Source: Magnetococcales bacterium
GTDB taxonomy: Bacteria; Pseudomonadota; Magnetococcia; Magnetococcales; UBA8363
Direction of reading: 5' to 3'
Assembly (NCBI GenBank): GCA_002753515.1
Contig: PEAK01000025.1
Span: 1-55,254 of the forward strand
DNA: 55,254 bases
Positions 29,763 through 49,379 of this stretch are shown one piece after another. Positions within the stretch are counted from its first letter, which is position 1; the number at the start of each line of letters is the position of its first letter. Under the pieces are notes generated by a model. That model was given only the letters and a program-made list of their open reading frames with translations. It was not told the origin of the DNA and ran no database searches. A program made the position numbers and the translations under genes.

Positions 29763-31376
29763 ATGACAACTATTGACCAATTGAATCAATTCCTCGCCAA
29801 TATAAACCATCTCGGATTTGCCAAATTGACCGTATTCAAGGAAATCTTTCCCAAAATACCCGACAGTTCCTTTTTTCAAGTTTTCGATTATCCCTCACTA
29901 TGCGGCGAAAGTATCGCCCATATGGAATCCGTCAAGGTGGGAGATAAAGAATCCTCCCAATTCGATTTTGACATCAATTCAACAAACAGGACGCCGCTGA
30001 ACTGCCTGTACCCCTTGACCAAGAAAGAAAAAAACAAAAAACCTGAACATTTTACCATAGGCTCCGATCCTGACAATCATTTGGTTATCCCCGATTTCAC
30101 CGTTTCCAGGCAACACGCCGTCATCAATAAAAAAGCCCATCGCTATTATTTACAGGATTTGGGAAGCGAATTCGGCTCCTATATCAATGGCGTCTCCTTC
30201 GACAATGAGGAAATATTGCTTAACGATGGCGACCAACTCTCCTTCGGCAGATATCAATTCCTGTTCATGGAACCCGATACCCTGTTTGAATTCGTCCACA
30301 AAAACAAGAAAAAAGAACCTCAACTCCGCGAAGAGATCTCGCCCAAAGAAGGCGAACAGTTGAAACAACGCGTTTATGAAAATTACCACGTGGTTTCCCG
30401 GAACATTACCGAGAAAAAATTTGAAAATGTCACTGAAAAAATATTATCCATCATATCATTCATCCCGTTTTTCAATGCCTTTTCCATCTACGAACGCAAT
30501 CAATTGGTTGCCGATTCACACCGACTGCTTGTGGCCCGAACAGGGGAAACCATCATCAAGGAAAATGATGCCAGTAATAATTTTTATATCGTTCTCAAGG
30601 GAAAGGTCAGTGTTGTCAAAAAGGGGAGCAAACACCAGTTCAGCAGCTTCGGGCCGGGCAATTGTTTTGGGGAAATCGCCTTTTTAACGGGTATTCCACG
30701 CTCCGCCGATGTCGTCGCCAACGAATCAACCATTTTGTTTACCATTGATCGCGACCTGTACGAAAATATTGGCGTTGAAATTCGCGAAAAAATGAAAGAT
30801 CAAATCATTCGCCAAGTCTCTTCCAATATCATCAGGCAAAATCGCGATGTCAAAGATATCCGACAAGGTCATACCTCGGCAAAAATCAAGGTTTCCAAAG
30901 TAAAAGCCATGCATGCCGAACTGGAAAAACAAAAAGCCAGAAAAATGATCGATCAATTTGTCCGGGAATCCCCCGTGTTCGCCAACTTTACCACCTACCA
31001 AAAAATTGGCCTGACCGCTTTCCTGGAAAATGTCAAATTTTACAAAGCAGGCGAGGTGATCATCGAAGAAAATACCTTGAATGATGAAGTCAGATTCATT
31101 ATCGATGGGTCGGCCTATATCACGACAACCGAAAATGATGTGGTTCTATCCGAGATTCATGCCGGCGACCTGTTCGGTGAAGTCTCCGCGTTTGGCAAAA
31201 AAAAGGTGTCCGCCAACGTAATCGCCAAGGAAAAAACCCACGTTGTCAGTATTACCGGGGACCACATGCGGTCATTGCCCATCGAAATCAGGGAAAAAAT
31301 GAAGGATATCGCCTTGGGGCAATTGCTGCGCCGGATCACCGCCCAAAACGTCACAATCGTTACAGGACGGGTCTGA
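29763..31376 (+). CDS. FHA domain protein with two cyclic nucleotide-binding domains
   Basis: 537 residues. FHA at about 97-170: HFTIGSDPDNHLVIPDFTVS followed by RQH, and SYINGV, which binds phospho-Thr. Two cNMP-binding domains follow, about 235-350 (FGPGNCFGEIAFLTGIPRSA, the phosphate-binding cassette) and about 410-520 (GDLFGEVSAFGKKKVSANV, less canonical with no Arg in the expected place). No DNA-binding or catalytic domain is present, so it integrates cAMP/cGMP with protein phosphorylation as an adapter. Codon use is more AT-rich than neighbours. N-terminal 95 residues are unrecognised. Monocistronic. Confidence 0.88.
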   Translation: MTTIDQLNQFLANINHLGFAKLTVFKEIFPKIPDSSFFQVFDYPSLCGESIAHMESVKVGDKESSQFDFDINSTNRTPLNCLYPLTKKEKNKKPEHFTIGSDPDNHLVIPDFTVSRQHAVINKKAHRYYLQDLGSEFGSYINGVSFDNEEILLNDGDQLSFGRYQFLFMEPDTLFEFVHKNKKKEPQLREEISPKEGEQLKQRVYENYHVVSRNITEKKFENVTEKILSIISFIPFFNAFSIYERNQLVADSHRLLVARTGETIIKENDASNNFYIVLKGKVSVVKKGSKHQFSSFGPGNCFGEIAFLTGIPRSADVVANESTILFTIDRDLYENIGVEIREKMKDQIIRQVSSNIIRQNRDVKDIRQGHTSAKIKVSKVKAMHAELEKQKARKMIDQFVRESPVFANFTTYQKIGLTAFLENVKFYKAGEVIIEENTLNDEVRFIIDGSAYITTTENDVVLSEIHAGDLFGEVSAFGKKKVSANVIAKEKTHVVSITGDHMRSLPIEIREKMKDIALGQLLRRITAQNVTIVTGRV

Positions 31377-42673: not shown

Positions 42674-44227
42674 GTGAACCCATGGCATGGAATTCTGACC
42701 TGCTTCGGAGTCGCCATAATGGTCTTATTTTTCAATAAACAGGCCCAAAGCTCTGACACCATCGTCCGTCCCCCGGCCCTGGCGGGAACCTGGTATCCCA
42801 AACAAGCCGATGCCCTATCCAAGCAGATCAGCGACCTGCTGACGCAAATACCCTCGACCACCGCGCAACAACAAACGCCCCCGGTGCGTGCCGTCCTCAT
42901 CCCCCACGCCGGCTACAGTTACAGCGGTCGCACAGCCTTAACGGCCTTGAAAATACTCACCGGGGCCTCCTTCAAAAGAGTCGTGATCATCGCTCCCGCG
43001 CATCGGGTCAGTTTTACCGGCGTGGCCCTCCCCCAAGCCACTCACTTTCGCACCCCCCTGGGCGAAATTCCCCTCGACACAGATGCCATGACTTCATTAA
43101 CCGATCATCCCCTAATCCGCACCATCCCGGGCGCCCACGATCAGGAACACAGCATCGAGATTGAACTCCCCCTGCTGCAAACAATATTGGCAAACGGATG
43201 GCAACTCCTCCCCCTCCTGGTCGGACAGATGGATTATCCCAGTTATTCCAAAATAGCCGAAACCTTGCGACCCTTCCTGGACGAACAAACCTTGCTCGTC
43301 ATCTCAGGAGATTTCACCCATTTGGGCAGCCATTTCGACTTCCAACCCTTCGCACTGGACGCCAACATTGCCGAAAATCTGCAACAACTCGATATGGGTG
43401 CCGTCGATCACATCATTGCCCGCAATCCCAAAGGATTTCTGGACTACCGTGAAAAGACCGGTATCACCGCCTGCGCCTTTGGCCCGGTCATGGTGTTGCT
43501 CAACCTGATCACCGACCAAGTGGAACCCCGCTTGATCCAATACCATACCAGCGGCAGTGACAACGGTGATTTCTCGCATTCGGTCAGCTACGTCTCCATG
43601 ACCTTTCGCGCCAGCAAACCACTGGCCGCACTACAAAAGGATCCCTCGCCGCTGGTAGACGAAGAGATGAAGCAATTGCACGCCCTGGCCGTGGCCACCA
43701 TCCGCAAAGCCGTACAACACGACGAGACCATCACCCCCGCCAACGTAAACGATATCAAACGCCATTTTCAAAACAAGGCCGGTGCCTTCGTCACCCTCAA
43801 ACGTTCCGGGACATTACGTGGTTGCATCGGCCAACTCATGCCCGTTGCTCCCCTTTATCAAGCGGTTGCGGACAATGCTGTCAACGCCGCCCTCCACGAC
43901 AACCGTTTTCAACCGGTCACCCCCGACGAACTCAACGACATGGAAGTCACCATCAGTGTGTTGAGTCCCATGCGCCCCATCCCATCCTGGGAAGCCTTCG
44001 AAGTTGGCAAACAGGGAATTGTCCTCAGCAAAAATGGTCGTCGCGCCGTTTTTCTCCCGGAAGTCGCCGGCGAACAGGGATGGAATCGTGAACAAACCTT
44101 GACCGAACTGTCGCAAAAGGCGGGACTGCCCAAAGACGCCTGGAAAAGCGGTGCCTCGTTCGAGGTCTTCACCTCCCAGGTTTATTCGGCTCCCATCCCA
44201 TCCCCCGCCAAGCCGTCCCATCCATGA
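42674..44227 (+). CDS. MEMO1-AMMECR1 fusion protein (AmmeMemoRadiSam B+A) with signal peptide
   Basis: 517 residues from GTG 42674 (AGGGGA upstream). An N-terminal hydrophobic stretch (about 5-22) looks like a signal peptide or anchor. MEMO1-like domain at about 30-310: AGTWYPKQAD, LIPHAGYSYSGRTAL, VIIAPAHRVSF, ISGDFTHLG, with the His/Asp/Cys site of the dioxygenase-like fold. AMMECR1 domain at about 350-510: GAFVTLKRSGTLRGCIGQLM, DNRFQPVTPDEL. In many bacteria these are separate proteins next to a radical SAM enzyme (AmmeMemoRadiSam system); here they are fused and no radical SAM gene is present in the window. Stop overlaps the SpmAB gene (ATGA). Confidence 0.9.
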   Translation: MNPWHGILTCFGVAIMVLFFNKQAQSSDTIVRPPALAGTWYPKQADALSKQISDLLTQIPSTTAQQQTPPVRAVLIPHAGYSYSGRTALTALKILTGASFKRVVIIAPAHRVSFTGVALPQATHFRTPLGEIPLDTDAMTSLTDHPLIRTIPGAHDQEHSIEIELPLLQTILANGWQLLPLLVGQMDYPSYSKIAETLRPFLDEQTLLVISGDFTHLGSHFDFQPFALDANIAENLQQLDMGAVDHIIARNPKGFLDYREKTGITACAFGPVMVLLNLITDQVEPRLIQYHTSGSDNGDFSHSVSYVSMTFRASKPLAALQKDPSPLVDEEMKQLHALAVATIRKAVQHDETITPANVNDIKRHFQNKAGAFVTLKRSGTLRGCIGQLMPVAPLYQAVADNAVNAALHDNRFQPVTPDELNDMEVTISVLSPMRPIPSWEAFEVGKQGIVLSKNGRRAVFLPEVAGEQGWNREQTLTELSQKAGLPKDAWKSGASFEVFTSQVYSAPIPSPAKPSHP

Positions 44228-45528
44228 ACACGCTCTTTTCCGCCCTGGTTATCCTGGCCTTCGTCACTGCCGGCTATCGCCAATGGCATTGGGTCGCTGG
44301 ACCCGGTAAATCCCCCATGGAACTCATGACCAGTGCCATGGTGGATTCGGCTGCCGCCTCAGTCACCCTGGCCCTGGGCCTTATCGGGGTCATGGCACTG
44401 TTTTTGGGATTGATGAAAGTTGCGGAAAAAGGGGGCGTCTTGCTCATGCTGGCGCGGCTGATTCGACCACTCATGGTGCGACTCTTTCCCGATGTCCCCC
44501 CGGATCACCCCGCCATGGGGGCCATGATCATGAATATTTCGGCCAATATCCTCGGACTCGGCAATGCCGCCACACCCTTTGGCATCCGCGCCATGCAGGA
44601 ATTGGATCGCCTGAACACTTGCAAAGGGACCGCCACCAACGCCATGGCCCTGTTTTTGGCCATCAACACCACCTCCATCACCCTGTTGCCCACCAACGTC
44701 ATCGCCCTCAGAGCTTCGGTGCATTCCCTCGACCCGGCAGCCATCCTCCCAACCACCCTGCTCGCCACCCTCCTATCCACCGTCGTTGCCATCACGTCGG
44801 TCAAGCTGCTGCAACGTTTTTTCCCCATCCCAGGACAAAACGTCACCAACCAGCCCCATCAATCCAGCACACCACCCGAATCCACCACCACCCTGGAGGA
44901 TGCCGGCCCGCCCTACCCCATCTGGGTCGTTCTCCTCGCCCTGTTGGGATTCTTGAGCATCATCCCCTTGACCATTTTCTTTGGCCGCACCTTCTCACCC
45001 TGGATCATCCCCGGTTTGATGACCACTCTGCTGCTCTTTGGGATCATACGAAAAATCAAAGTCTATGAAGCCTTCATCGAAGGGGCACGCGAAGGCTTTG
45101 AGGTCGCCACCCGCATCATCCCCTACCTGGTTGCCATTCTGGTTGCCGTCAGCATGTTTCGCGCAAGTTCCGCCATGGATGCCCTGGTCACGTTCATCGC
45201 CCCATGGACCTCCCCCCTCGGACTCCCCGCTGAGGCCCTCCCCATGGCCCTCTTACGACCGCTCTCCGGTTCCGGTGCTTACGGCTTGCTCGCCTCCTTG
45301 ATGCAAGACCCCCATATCGGACCGGACAGCTATACCGGCCTCCTGGTCTCCACCATCATGGGCTCCTCCGAAACCACTTTTTATGTCCTGGCCGTCTATT
45401 TTGGCGCGGTCGGCGTCAGCACCATGCGTCATACCCTGGCTGCTGCCCTGCTGGCCGAATTCGCCGCCGTCAGTGGATCGGTGGCAGCCTGTCTCTGGCT
45501 CTTCCCCCACGGACTTTCATCAGGATAA
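44224..45528 (+). CDS. SpmA-SpmB fusion (Gate/nucleoside-recognition membrane protein)
   Basis: 434 residues, about ten membrane helices. The N-terminal half is SpmA-like (GLIGVMALFLGLMKVAEKGG, NISANILGLGNAATPFGIRA), the C-terminal half SpmB-like (YEAFIEGAREGFEVATRIIP, TIMGSSETTFYVLAVYFGAVG). In sporulating Firmicutes SpmA and SpmB affect spore core dehydration; in Gram-negatives the fused form is common and its role, perhaps transport of a nucleoside-like or ionic solute, is unknown. ATGA-coupled to the MEMO1-AMMECR1 gene. Confidence 0.88.
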   Translation: MNTLFSALVILAFVTAGYRQWHWVAGPGKSPMELMTSAMVDSAAASVTLALGLIGVMALFLGLMKVAEKGGVLLMLARLIRPLMVRLFPDVPPDHPAMGAMIMNISANILGLGNAATPFGIRAMQELDRLNTCKGTATNAMALFLAINTTSITLLPTNVIALRASVHSLDPAAILPTTLLATLLSTVVAITSVKLLQRFFPIPGQNVTNQPHQSSTPPESTTTLEDAGPPYPIWVVLLALLGFLSIIPLTIFFGRTFSPWIIPGLMTTLLLFGIIRKIKVYEAFIEGAREGFEVATRIIPYLVAILVAVSMFRASSAMDALVTFIAPWTSPLGLPAEALPMALLRPLSGSGAYGLLASLMQDPHIGPDSYTGLLVSTIMGSSETTFYVLAVYFGAVGVSTMRHTLAAALLAEFAAVSGSVAACLWLFPHGLSSG

Positions 45529-46169: not shown

Positions 46170-48785
46170 TCAAAAAACACATTGATCGTTCAGAAAAATG
46201 GAATACTTTCTATCCTCGTTCAAAATGTGGCCCACGATCCAATCAAAGAAAAATTTTTCAAATACCACCCCCCCCAGGGAATCCAGTTTGGTCATTTTTT
46301 CCCGGTAATCCATCACCTGCGCCACCAATACGTGGTGAATCCGCTGGTGTCGTTCCAGATCCGGATATTGGTATTGTCGCATCAAGTTTTCCTCGGCGGC
46401 AAAATGATATTTTGTATAATCCACCAATCCCTCGAAAGCCCGTTCCAACGAATGCCGATCCTGGGTGGAACGAAGAATTTCTATGATGCTGTTGGCAATT
46501 TCCACCAATTTTTTATGATGCACATCCATCTGCGCATTGTTGATGCCAAATTCTTCCCGCCAGGAGAGTACCCCCAAGGTACTCCCGGAATAGACAATCT
46601 TTTGTGTACGTTTTAAATAGGATTCAAATAATTTCCAGCGAACGATGGGTATTTCCTTGAGCAACTCGCCGGGGATCTGCAACGTCTCCGAGGGTTGCGT
46701 CGCCTGGACCCTGAACAGGCAGGGAATATCAAAAACCGCCCCCTCCTCCCCAAAGAAATCACGTTCACCCAGGCAATCCAGCGCTTCTTGGCCAACCAAT
46801 CGCACAAACTGGCCCGACTTGACGATGTTCAACGATCCCAAATCGCGACAGGAGATAATGTCTCCGGTCTGATAATAATGATGGTGCAAAGCATCACAAA
46901 TCCTGCTGAATACCGGGTGCGAAACCCCTTCACCAAACAATCGCGTGGATTGCAAAAAGATTCTTATTCTCCAATTCTGTTCAATCTTTGCAGCCAAATC
47001 GTTCTTCTTGATCAGTTCGTGGTAGAGCCCTACCGGTATGACCAGTGCATGCATAAAACTGGAACTGCGATACGTGGCATCAGTAGGCACGTGTTGGATT
47101 CCCGCAATTTCCCCGATCAAGGTGCCCGCAAACAATTGCCCAGAAACGCCATCATTCGCATGAATACTTTCCACCATCCCTGAAAGAACCAACAAAAGAT
47201 GATCGGGAACAACACCCTCTTTGAGAATGATTTCACCTGGATTGAAAGAGCGCAAAGGACAATTGAGCAATATACGAATATGATGGACCGGAGCGTTGGG
47301 AAGATACGATTGCAAGTATGCAAAGGCACTGCGGCGTGAATAATCCGACTCCGCTGGAATCAATATATCGGTAACACCATAAGGGGCACTGGAACCAATT
47401 TTTTTCTCCGCCAGGGTCAACTCCTGGGACGTATGGGACAGCAACAATTTATCCGACCGATCATCGCGAAAATCATCCGCCATGCCATGAATGGCACCAC
47501 CACCAATATCCAATTTTTTTAGATTCGCCGGTTGAAGATACGCCTCCCGGATACGATCAAAAAAAGCCTGTGTCACCCCTGGTTTTGCAGCATCGTCGGT
47601 CACCATCCGTTGCAATACCTGAAACGCGACAATATCGGCGAAATGGGCATAGGTCTTGTACCCCCCGGCCCAAAGGGTACGAAACATGAAAATACTCGTC
47701 TCCAACGGATGGGGGGAAAAAACAGGCTTGACCTCCAAGCCGTCCACGTCATTCCAAACATCAAATGCCAAATCGTGAATGGCAAAATAATCCTGGAAAT
47801 TCTCCTCTTCCATGGACAAAAGGGCAGCCAGTTTTTTTTGCACCGTGGCCCGGACCACCGGCGTGGCAAAGAATTTTATCTTATGTCCCGCACGCATCAA
47901 GGTGGTTATGCCCGCGCAATGATCATCGTGGGCATGGGTTTGAAAAATCCCCTCAATTTCCTCCAGGCCAATACCCAATGCCGTCAGGTTGTAGAAAAGA
48001 TTCGGTCCGCAATCTATTAAAAAAATTTTCCCCTGAAAGCTTATGATACTGGCCATACTTGGACGATTGATGTCCCATCCATCCCCTTCACCCGAGTGGA
48101 TGACCGCAAAATATTCCCGTTTCAACTTTTGGAAGCCCAACGGATACGGGGACACATACCGCTCACCCGGTTTCAAGTTCAAGTCAACCGTAACACGTTC
48201 CCCCTCATAGGAAATTTCAAAAATATTGGTCGCCGTCCTTTGGATAAACACGCCATTCCTGATCCCCACCTTTTCGCTACCCACCTGGATCGTGTCCAAA
48301 AAGGCATTGGAAGAAGAAATTTTGCCGTAGGCAAAGTGCAGCTTCATCCGCATCATTTCCGATGCGGTGTGGGCATCCATGCCCGTCTCCATCACCTCTT
48401 CCTTAGAGACCAACCCATAGTTGCCACGATAAATGTACTGCATCTGCGCGTTGACCTGCTCCGACTGGCCGATCAACAACGGTTTCACCCCGGTATTGTT
48501 GGGATGCTTGGGGATGATCATCCCTTGTTTGTAGAGCATATGTAACACTGGAAATTCCGCCAGATTGGCGAAATCACCGTTCTGCACCATGGTATCCGAC
48601 AATAATATGGCATTGGGGCCGCTTTCATACGCCACCCCCTGTTTCTCCTGTGGTACCACGAGGCCCCGCTTGATCAAATGTTTGATACTGTCCCCCGGGC
48701 AACCGCAGAGAATCCGCAACCCCGCCTCGGCCACCTCAATCCAATAAATACCGACAGAAACCGTTGTTTTTATGATTTTATCCAT
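46170..48785 (-). CDS. Metallo-beta-lactamase fold protein with two cNMP domains and C-terminal hemerythrin
   Basis: 871 residues. N-terminal region of unknown fold (about 1-210), then an MBL-fold domain (about 225-460) with HAHDDH (284-289) and LIDCGPN, and a second-shell His in LLLSHTSQE. Two cNMP-binding-like domains at about 505-605 (FNPGEIILKEGVVPDHLLLV) and about 620-720 (FFGEEGAVFDIP). C-terminal bacteriohemerythrin at about 745-865: H756/757, H794, E798, H813, H817, H853 and D858 in the pattern that binds a di-iron-oxo centre and O2. The order suggests O2 or redox input (hemerythrin) plus a nucleotide signal controlling a hydrolase-like or nuclease-like MBL domain. No membrane segment. 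Single gene. Confidence 0.88.
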   Translation of the reverse strand: MDKIIKTTVSVGIYWIEVAEAGLRILCGCPGDSIKHLIKRGLVVPQEKQGVAYESGPNAILLSDTMVQNGDFANLAEFPVLHMLYKQGMIIPKHPNNTGVKPLLIGQSEQVNAQMQYIYRGNYGLVSKEEVMETGMDAHTASEMMRMKLHFAYGKISSSNAFLDTIQVGSEKVGIRNGVFIQRTATNIFEISYEGERVTVDLNLKPGERYVSPYPLGFQKLKREYFAVIHSGEGDGWDINRPSMASIISFQGKIFLIDCGPNLFYNLTALGIGLEEIEGIFQTHAHDDHCAGITTLMRAGHKIKFFATPVVRATVQKKLAALLSMEEENFQDYFAIHDLAFDVWNDVDGLEVKPVFSPHPLETSIFMFRTLWAGGYKTYAHFADIVAFQVLQRMVTDDAAKPGVTQAFFDRIREAYLQPANLKKLDIGGGAIHGMADDFRDDRSDKLLLSHTSQELTLAEKKIGSSAPYGVTDILIPAESDYSRRSAFAYLQSYLPNAPVHHIRILLNCPLRSFNPGEIILKEGVVPDHLLLVLSGMVESIHANDGVSGQLFAGTLIGEIAGIQHVPTDATYRSSSFMHALVIPVGLYHELIKKNDLAAKIEQNWRIRIFLQSTRLFGEGVSHPVFSRICDALHHHYYQTGDIISCRDLGSLNIVKSGQFVRLVGQEALDCLGERDFFGEEGAVFDIPCLFRVQATQPSETLQIPGELLKEIPIVRWKLFESYLKRTQKIVYSGSTLGVLSWREEFGINNAQMDVHHKKLVEIANSIIEILRSTQDRHSLERAFEGLVDYTKYHFAAEENLMRQYQYPDLERHQRIHHVLVAQVMDYREKMTKLDSLGGVVFEKFFFDWIVGHILNEDRKYSIFLNDQCVF

Positions 48786-48810: not shown

Positions 48811-48998
48811 AAACCGCAACCAGTACGGGATATGTAGTTGGATATGTAGTTTTTCAGCGTCATTCCCGCCCCCGATTAAAGCATTCGGGGGCAGGCTTCA
48901 GCGGGAATCCAAAAAGCTAGGGAATGGTGTGTAGGTTTCCTGAATCCCCGCTTTCGCGGGGATGACAATAACTACACATTCCAAGATGGCTGCGGTTT
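48811..48998. repeat. Palindromic MITE-like element, copy 4
   Basis: Begins AAACCGCAACCAGTACGGGA and ends TGCGGTTT. The left arm carries an internal insert (CCCCCGATTAAAGCATTCGG, continuing GGGCAGGC) seen also in copy 5 in inverted orientation. It lies 26 bp upstream of the start of the MBL-cNMP-hemerythrin gene, where it might affect its promoter. Confidence 0.9.
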
Positions 48999-49049: not shown

Positions 49050-49379
49050 CTACACCGCCGCAGAATGGGGACCGGTTTCCAGAACAACAACTTCCTCCTC
49101 CAGTCGATTCCCGAGAGCAGTGCGTGCAACTTCCACATCGTAGTCAGCCTGAAGCCCCATCCAAAAACCAACCGATGTCCCAAAATATTTGCTGAGTCGC
49201 AACGCAGTTTCCGCTGTAATACTGCGTTTTCCATGGATAATCTGGTTGATACGGATCGGTTGAACGCCAATATCCCTGGCCAATCTATTTTGGCTCATTC
49301 CCAAGGGTTGCATGAACTCTTCAAACAGCACTTCACCTGGATGAACGTTAGCTAGATTCTCCACGTCGGTCTCCGTCAA
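49050..49379 (-). CDS. higA: HigA-type antitoxin (XRE family)
   Basis: 109 residues. HTH_3/HigA pattern: HPGEVLFEEFMQPLGMSQNR, LARDIGVQPIRINQIIHGKR, SITAETALRLSKYFG, FWMGLQ. The start codon is TTG at 49379, overlapping the toxin stop (TTGA); an internal GTG is an alternative. Binds its toxin and represses the operon promoter. Toxin-first order is typical of higBA. Confidence 0.92.
   Translation of the reverse strand: MTETDVENLANVHPGEVLFEEFMQPLGMSQNRLARDIGVQPIRINQIIHGKRSITAETALRLSKYFGTSVGFWMGLQADYDVEVARTALGNRLEEEVVVLETGPHSAAV

Follow-up and report, generated by a model that had tools for sequence, protein, structure and literature searches.

The window analysed here, a 55,254-nt stretch of DNA from a member of the Magnetococcales, carries on its minus strand an uninterrupted gene, opening with an ATG codon, for a protein of 871 aa (Table 1). 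An earlier note on this DNA had placed an MBL domain, two cNMP (CNB) domains and a hemerythrin on one chain, and this arrangement was confirmed by the intact open reading frame, by Pfam and NCBIfam matches, and by an AlphaFold2 model. All of the Pfam matches exceeded their gathering scores: Lactamase_B_2 (36.1 bits versus 27), Lactamase_B (35 bits versus 22.7), cNMP_binding in two stretches (61.3 bits versus 27.5), and Hemerythrin at residues 752-861 (48.6 bits versus 25.3). With 109 bits, the NCBIfam bacteriohemerythrin model, NF033749, passed its cut-off of 84. The AlphaFold2 model, made with 79 aligned homologues, is compact and multidomain, with the hemerythrin fused C-terminally to the functional domains in a single chain. 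The note's inventory of domains was incomplete in one respect: a fourth conserved module, at the N terminus, had been overlooked. A chance fusion or misassembly is ruled out, as dozens of genomes carry full-length homologues and the source genome has a paralog (described later).

Table 1. Positions of the 871-aa protein's gene, domains and metal ligands in the window.
Feature	Position	Strand	Remarks
Whole gene, 871 aa + stop	46170-48785	-	ORF; AlphaFold2 pLDDT 92.1, pTM 0.93
N-terminal module, residues 1-200	48186-48785	-	No Pfam or NCBIfam model; always attached to MBL core
MBL-fold hydrolase domain, residues 226-477	47355-48110	-	Top fold match Apyc1, Z 25.0
HAHDDH metal motif, residues 284-289 (H284, H286, D288, H289)	47919-47936	-	Invariant, 100/100
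MBL metal ligand H359	47709-47711	-	Invariant
MBL metal ligand D384	47634-47636	-	Invariant
MBL metal ligand H451	47433-47435	-	Invariant
CNB domain 1 (CNB1), residues 505-615	46941-47273	-	Phosphate-binding-cassette Arg replaced (T568)
CNB domain 2 (CNB2), residues 618-731	46593-46934	-	Phosphate-binding-cassette Arg replaced (C689)
Bacteriohemerythrin domain, residues 740-868	46182-46568	-	Ligands H757, H794, E798, H813, H817, H853, D858

Directly upstream of the gene, at 48830-48990, lie short GC-rich inverted repeats (ccccgcgaaagcgggg; gcccccgattaaagcattcgggggc) that look like dispersed REP-type elements, and beyond them a gene for a HigA-like HTH protein (49050-49379, minus strand). On the other side, a 517-aa chain fusing Memo-like and AMMECR1 domains (42674-44227, plus strand) overlaps by 4 bases the gene for a 434-aa membrane protein that matches 'Gate' (nucleoside recognition) twice (44224-45528, plus strand). 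Rfam yielded no match anywhere in the window. The loci compared share no single conserved operon partner, no conserved cyclase neighbor, and no common metabolic neighbor. Response-regulator-type proteins do recur nearby, forming a 46-member cluster among 308 neighboring ORFs; because the source genome has at least 150 receiver-domain matches, we give this recurrence little weight. The same genome has seven matches to class III nucleotidyl cyclases, which could supply a cyclic nucleotide.

The MBL domain and the N-terminal module

The HxHxDH motif of the hydrolase-like domain that the earlier note had proposed reads HAHDDH, and among 100 homologues all seven metal-ligand positions proved invariant (100/100). 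The MBL fold, the HxHxDH motif and the dinuclear ligand set that characterize class II cNMP phosphodiesterases are all present. In a profile search against solved structures, Apyc1 proteins were the best matches (E 8.6e-8 and 1e-6); they also headed the fold search (Z 25.0, 24.9 and 24.4; rmsd 2.6 over 221 residues for the best) and came out on top again in a second fold comparison. They were followed by Brucella MBL proteins with bound GMP/AMP (Z 23.3 and 22.9), and then by the PhnP family, YhfI, PqqB and RNase Z (Z about 22). Because the lead of Apyc1 over PhnP, PqqB and RNase Z is no more than two to three Z units, this ranking does not fix the substrate class. With 23.5 bits for the Apyc1 Pfam model PF23023, under its curated cut-off of 50, the domain is best taken as a relative of Apyc1 and not as a member of that family.

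All cyclic mononucleotides are substrates of Apyc1, and YhfI has a preference for cAMP/cGMP (PMC9117128). Both share with the 871-aa protein the MBL fold and the HxHxDH motif with its additional His, Asp and His ligands, but they are stand-alone homodimers of ~245 aa, whereas the protein described here has the makeup of a multidomain sensor with an N-terminal module in cis.

That module is as well conserved as the MBL domain itself. Over 79 aligned rows, the mean majority fraction was 0.71 for each, with 37/200 and 44/252 positions invariant, respectively; CNB1 (0.52), CNB2 (0.48) and the hemerythrin (0.48) fell well below, a contrast that would be as expected of catalytic versus regulatory parts. 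The invariant residues of the module include H94, N97, Q114, R120, N122 and Y123. We rejected the idea that residues 1-200 are a known stand-alone domain: neither Pfam nor NCBIfam matched them, and among 299 genomes searched at E≤0.001 the module never occurred outside the MBL core, except as fragments. One such fragment, on contig C36 of the source genome (L005, 270-476), is a 68-aa remnant, 63% identical over 62 residues, that directly follows a GGDEF-EAL-like gene and looks like a decayed copy.

In the model, residues 1-477 superpose on the long-form RNase Z, ELAC2 (370-381 residues aligned, Z 18.7-20.7, rmsd 3.9-4.3). ELAC2 pairs an inactive MBL half with an active one, and its catalytic MBL, like that of the 871-aa protein, is the C-terminal of the two parts; the N-terminal part here, however, is only 200 aa long, and a profile-profile comparison of the module with the MBL domain, made with few effective sequences, detected no relation. 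Catalytic residues of Apyc1 are supplied by the opposing protomer of its homodimer, and YhfI is likewise a homodimer (PMC9117128). For these two reasons, the Apyc1 residues supplied across the dimer and the ELAC2 alignment, we suspect that the module is a cis stand-in for the second protomer, a suspicion that sequence does not support.

The CNB pair and the hemerythrin

The two CNB domains, which hhalign relates to one another at 96%, both have the CNB fold, and as a pair they match the tandem CNBs of PKA-R and PKG (E 9.4e-15 for 3of1). The claim of two nucleotide-binding domains, and with it cAMP/cGMP binding, is doubtful, as the Arg that grips the phosphate has been lost from both. This residue of the phosphate-binding cassette was kept in 0/100 homologues in CNB1 and in 1/100 in CNB2. 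At the ribose position most retain the Glu (E559, 72%; E680, 96%). The alignment register was confirmed by a second CNB signaling protein within the window, a 537-aa protein with an FHA and two CNB domains (29763-31376, plus strand), the first CNB of which has the cassette Arg intact (GEIAFLTGIPRSA). Feedback by a cyclic nucleotide through these CNBs appears unlikely, since neither has the canonical Arg.

The tandem arrangement is common to PKA-R and PKG proteins, including the PKAR of Trypanosoma, in which this Arg is likewise replaced and the ligands are purine nucleosides (PMC10959531). The likeness to the kinetoplastid protein ends there: its nucleoside-binding Glu, which contacts the ribose (the A202 position), is not conserved in the family, position 561 being S/A/T/P and 682 variable. 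With the Arg lost and the kinetoplastid Glu absent, the CNBs may be either ligand-free relays or binders of another ligand. They also differ from those of PKA-R in what they are joined to, an MBL domain instead of a kinase inhibitor segment.

The C-terminal domain has the features predicted for a canonical diiron hemerythrin, as the earlier note had it: the seven iron ligands are all present, and the fold matches that of DcrH-Hr (Z 19.8, rmsd 1.7 Å, 29% identity). DcrH, the MCP-hemerythrin of Desulfovibrio vulgaris, also carries its hemerythrin C-terminally, but unlike the 871-aa protein it drives chemotaxis signaling. The ligands are less constant among homologues than those of the MBL domain; 82/95 keep all seven, and in 13/95 they are altered, mainly in Campylobacterota and in Desulfobacterales with H853D. 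From these alterations, it would appear that not all of the homologues can be O2 sensors. In five Desulfobacterales loci (L051, L057, L062, L068 and L073), His 853 is replaced by Asp while all MBL ligands are kept, possibly giving an altered or iron-only site in these anaerobes.

Hemerythrin sensors are known to act on MCP, GGDEF and HD-GYP outputs, and one of them, Bhr-HD-GYP, is a hemerythrin-gated phosphodiesterase that is active when reduced (PMC9388753; PMC8846402). Bhr-HD-GYP of Ferrovum sp. PN-J185 and VcBhr-DGC, like the protein described here, place a canonical diiron hemerythrin on a signaling enzyme, and the former comes, like some members of the present family, from an iron-oxidizing host. 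Their outputs are HD-GYP or GGDEF domains acting on c-di-GMP, whereas the 871-aa protein has a two-metal MBL domain, an N-terminal module, tandem CNBs and a C-terminal hemerythrin.

Distribution and modular inputs

Three further copies of the core are encoded in the source genome: (i) a full-length paralog on contig C50 (871 aa, 55% identity), which has the hemerythrin; (ii) one on C25 (732 aa), which does not; and (iii) one on C107 (1046 aa), also without it, in which, to judge from its homologue L126, the core would be preceded by an SBP_bac_3 sensor at the N terminus and a transmembrane stretch. The family was found in 55/299 genomes of the phylum, and the core in all 48 of the Magnetococcales genomes sampled (17 genera), often in several copies. 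The full architecture was met again, with 47-69% identity, in Magnetococcales, Magnetospirillum-type bacteria, Gallionellales, Desulfobacterales and others. Among GTDB contigs, 333 loci were confirmed, and most of the best 80 of these 333, which were kept, have the same architecture; the best 80 come from Magnetococcales, Magnetospirillum and relatives, Gallionella and other Nitrosomonadales, and Desulfobacterales, as well as from Nitrospirota, Nitrospinota, Campylobacterota, Planctomycetota and others. The architecture, which the earlier note had called unusual, is so when set against characterized proteins, but it is common in Magnetococcales and scattered over several phyla. It was undescribed in the literature searched, in which one survey (PMC4919030) presents its 56 hemerythrin architectures in figures only and may include it there, and no MBL output of a hemerythrin sensor was found in that literature. 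The family is, apparently, undescribed though widespread.

A C-terminal hemerythrin is present in 122 of the 149 core proteins collected, a set in which some loci overlap and whose proportions, having been gathered by similarity to the window protein, are not natural frequencies. The remaining proteins have an N-terminal SBP_bac_3 domain with a membrane segment, an N-terminal receiver domain, or neither. The arrangements seen were receiver-core, SBP_bac_3-core, core-hemerythrin and, all in one protein (L010), receiver-core-hemerythrin; at L137 the hemerythrin is encoded on its own, by an ORF that lies 51 bases downstream. Apparent N-terminal extensions at four loci (L132, L071, L151 and L153) were rejected as domains, as they look like upstream read-through in ORF calling. 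On a quick tree of 124 rows, the hemerythrin form requires at least eight gains or losses, and it clusters far more than shuffled labels do. Because the same core occurs under hemerythrin, receiver and SBP_bac_3 domains, this pattern argues that the core is the output module and that the hemerythrin is one interchangeable input.

Proposed function and alternatives

From the layout, ligands and fold kinship described above, we infer, tentatively and with somewhat less than even confidence, that the 871-aa protein is a cytoplasmic, O2- or redox-gated MBL phosphodiesterase whose substrate would be a second messenger, a small phosphodiester for which a cyclic nucleotide is the likeliest candidate. 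The N-terminal module and the MBL domain would together form a catalytic unit with a two-metal site of the class II (Apyc1/YhfI) type, which would hydrolyze the messenger. O2 or oxidation would alter the diiron site of the hemerythrin, and the hemerythrin bundle, which a short linker connects to the final helix of the CNBs (713-731), would shift the CNB pair. The PKA-R-like tandem, with a noncanonical ligand or none, would act as an allosteric relay, its shift opening or closing the MBL site; in paralogs a receiver domain, or else a periplasmic SBP_bac_3-transmembrane sensor, takes the place of the hemerythrin input. The predicted placement of the hemerythrin relative to the core comes from one single-chain model with a softer linker. 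The proposed gating parallels that of Bhr-HD-GYP, and by that analogy activity probably belongs to the reduced form, a direction in which our confidence is low. The protein is not a proven cNMP sensor, and is best filed with the bacterial hemerythrin sensors, with a phosphodiesterase-like MBL output.

Two alternatives keep the oxygen gating and change the substrate. The MBL domain might hydrolyze a non-nucleotide compound, such as a lactone or ester, in the manner of PhnP, PqqB or arylsulfatase, and these proteins, including the PhnP-family diphosphatase, resemble it in fold (Z about 20.8-22.8); fusions to receiver, SBP, CNB and hemerythrin domains favor signaling over metabolism, however, as does the lack of a shared metabolic neighbor in the loci compared, and we regard this as a minor possibility. 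An O2- or redox-gated ribonuclease, in which residues 1-477 would be a miniature long-form RNase Z (a pseudo-MBL plus a catalytic MBL) acting on RNA, is suggested by the ELAC2 entries, which are the ones among the listed fold matches to span those residues, and by RNase Z being the top NCBIfam model over the MBL region. That match, however, reaches 41.4 bits where the cut-off is 292.95 and covers only residues 240-298; the MBL domain alone is nearer to Apyc1 than to RNase Z in both fold and profile; sequence profiles do not link the N-terminal module to it; and fusions to receiver domains and periplasmic sensors would better suit a second messenger. We therefore consider an RNA substrate unlikely.

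Other alternatives concern what the metal sites do. The note's suggestion of an ODP-type oxygen sensor is excluded by the ligand pattern: ODP and flavodiiron MBL domains carry HxExD, and the position of that Glu is occupied by His (residue 286) in 100/100 homologues, with the nearest profiles and folds being those of Apyc1-type phosphodiesterases. More broadly, the MBL domain could be an O2-reactive diiron site, either ODP/flavodiiron-like or that of a CmlA-like oxygenase, with the hemerythrin storing or delivering O2, as two potential dimetal sites on one chain and the many magnetotactic or iron-oxidizing hosts might suggest. In CmlA, Glu occupies the position of the third ligand, where His 359 is invariant here, and the fold matches listed are those of hydrolases and phosphodiesterases; we consider this reading very improbable. 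Finally, the hemerythrin could sense iron or redox state generally, or simply bind iron, with the rest of the protein functioning as in the favored explanation. Neither Bhr-HD-GYP nor Bhr-DGC has shown an O2 adduct, and both are termed oxygen and/or redox sensors (PMC9388753). The canonical ligands and DcrH-like fold of the present domain are compatible with O2 binding, and sequence cannot separate O2 sensing from this alternative; we judge the latter quite unlikely.

If the protein is, as we favor, a gated phosphodiesterase, it would add an MBL phosphodiesterase output to hemerythrin sensors, those characterized so far being coupled to chemotaxis or to c-di-GMP enzymes, and would have three unrelated kinds of input feeding a common output. 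Given its presence in every Magnetococcales genome sampled, often in multiple copies, and in Gallionella, Magnetospirillum-type bacteria and Desulfobacteria, the core is a strong candidate for turning oxygen into an internal signal in bacteria of the oxic-anoxic boundary. A bolder proposal, to which we give only a small chance, is that across this multicopy family, universal in the Magnetococcales sampled and scattered over phyla, a single phosphodiesterase core is driven by O2, phosphorylation or a periplasmic ligand, its CNBs having switched from cyclic nucleotides to a nucleoside, its own product or another small molecule. Such a family would constitute an unrecognized signaling layer in bacteria of the oxic-anoxic interface and might feed into magneto-aerotaxis. 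On contig C31 of the source genome, a 307-aa protein (L154, 1231-2154) apparently joins one CNB domain directly to a hemerythrin, without the MBL core.
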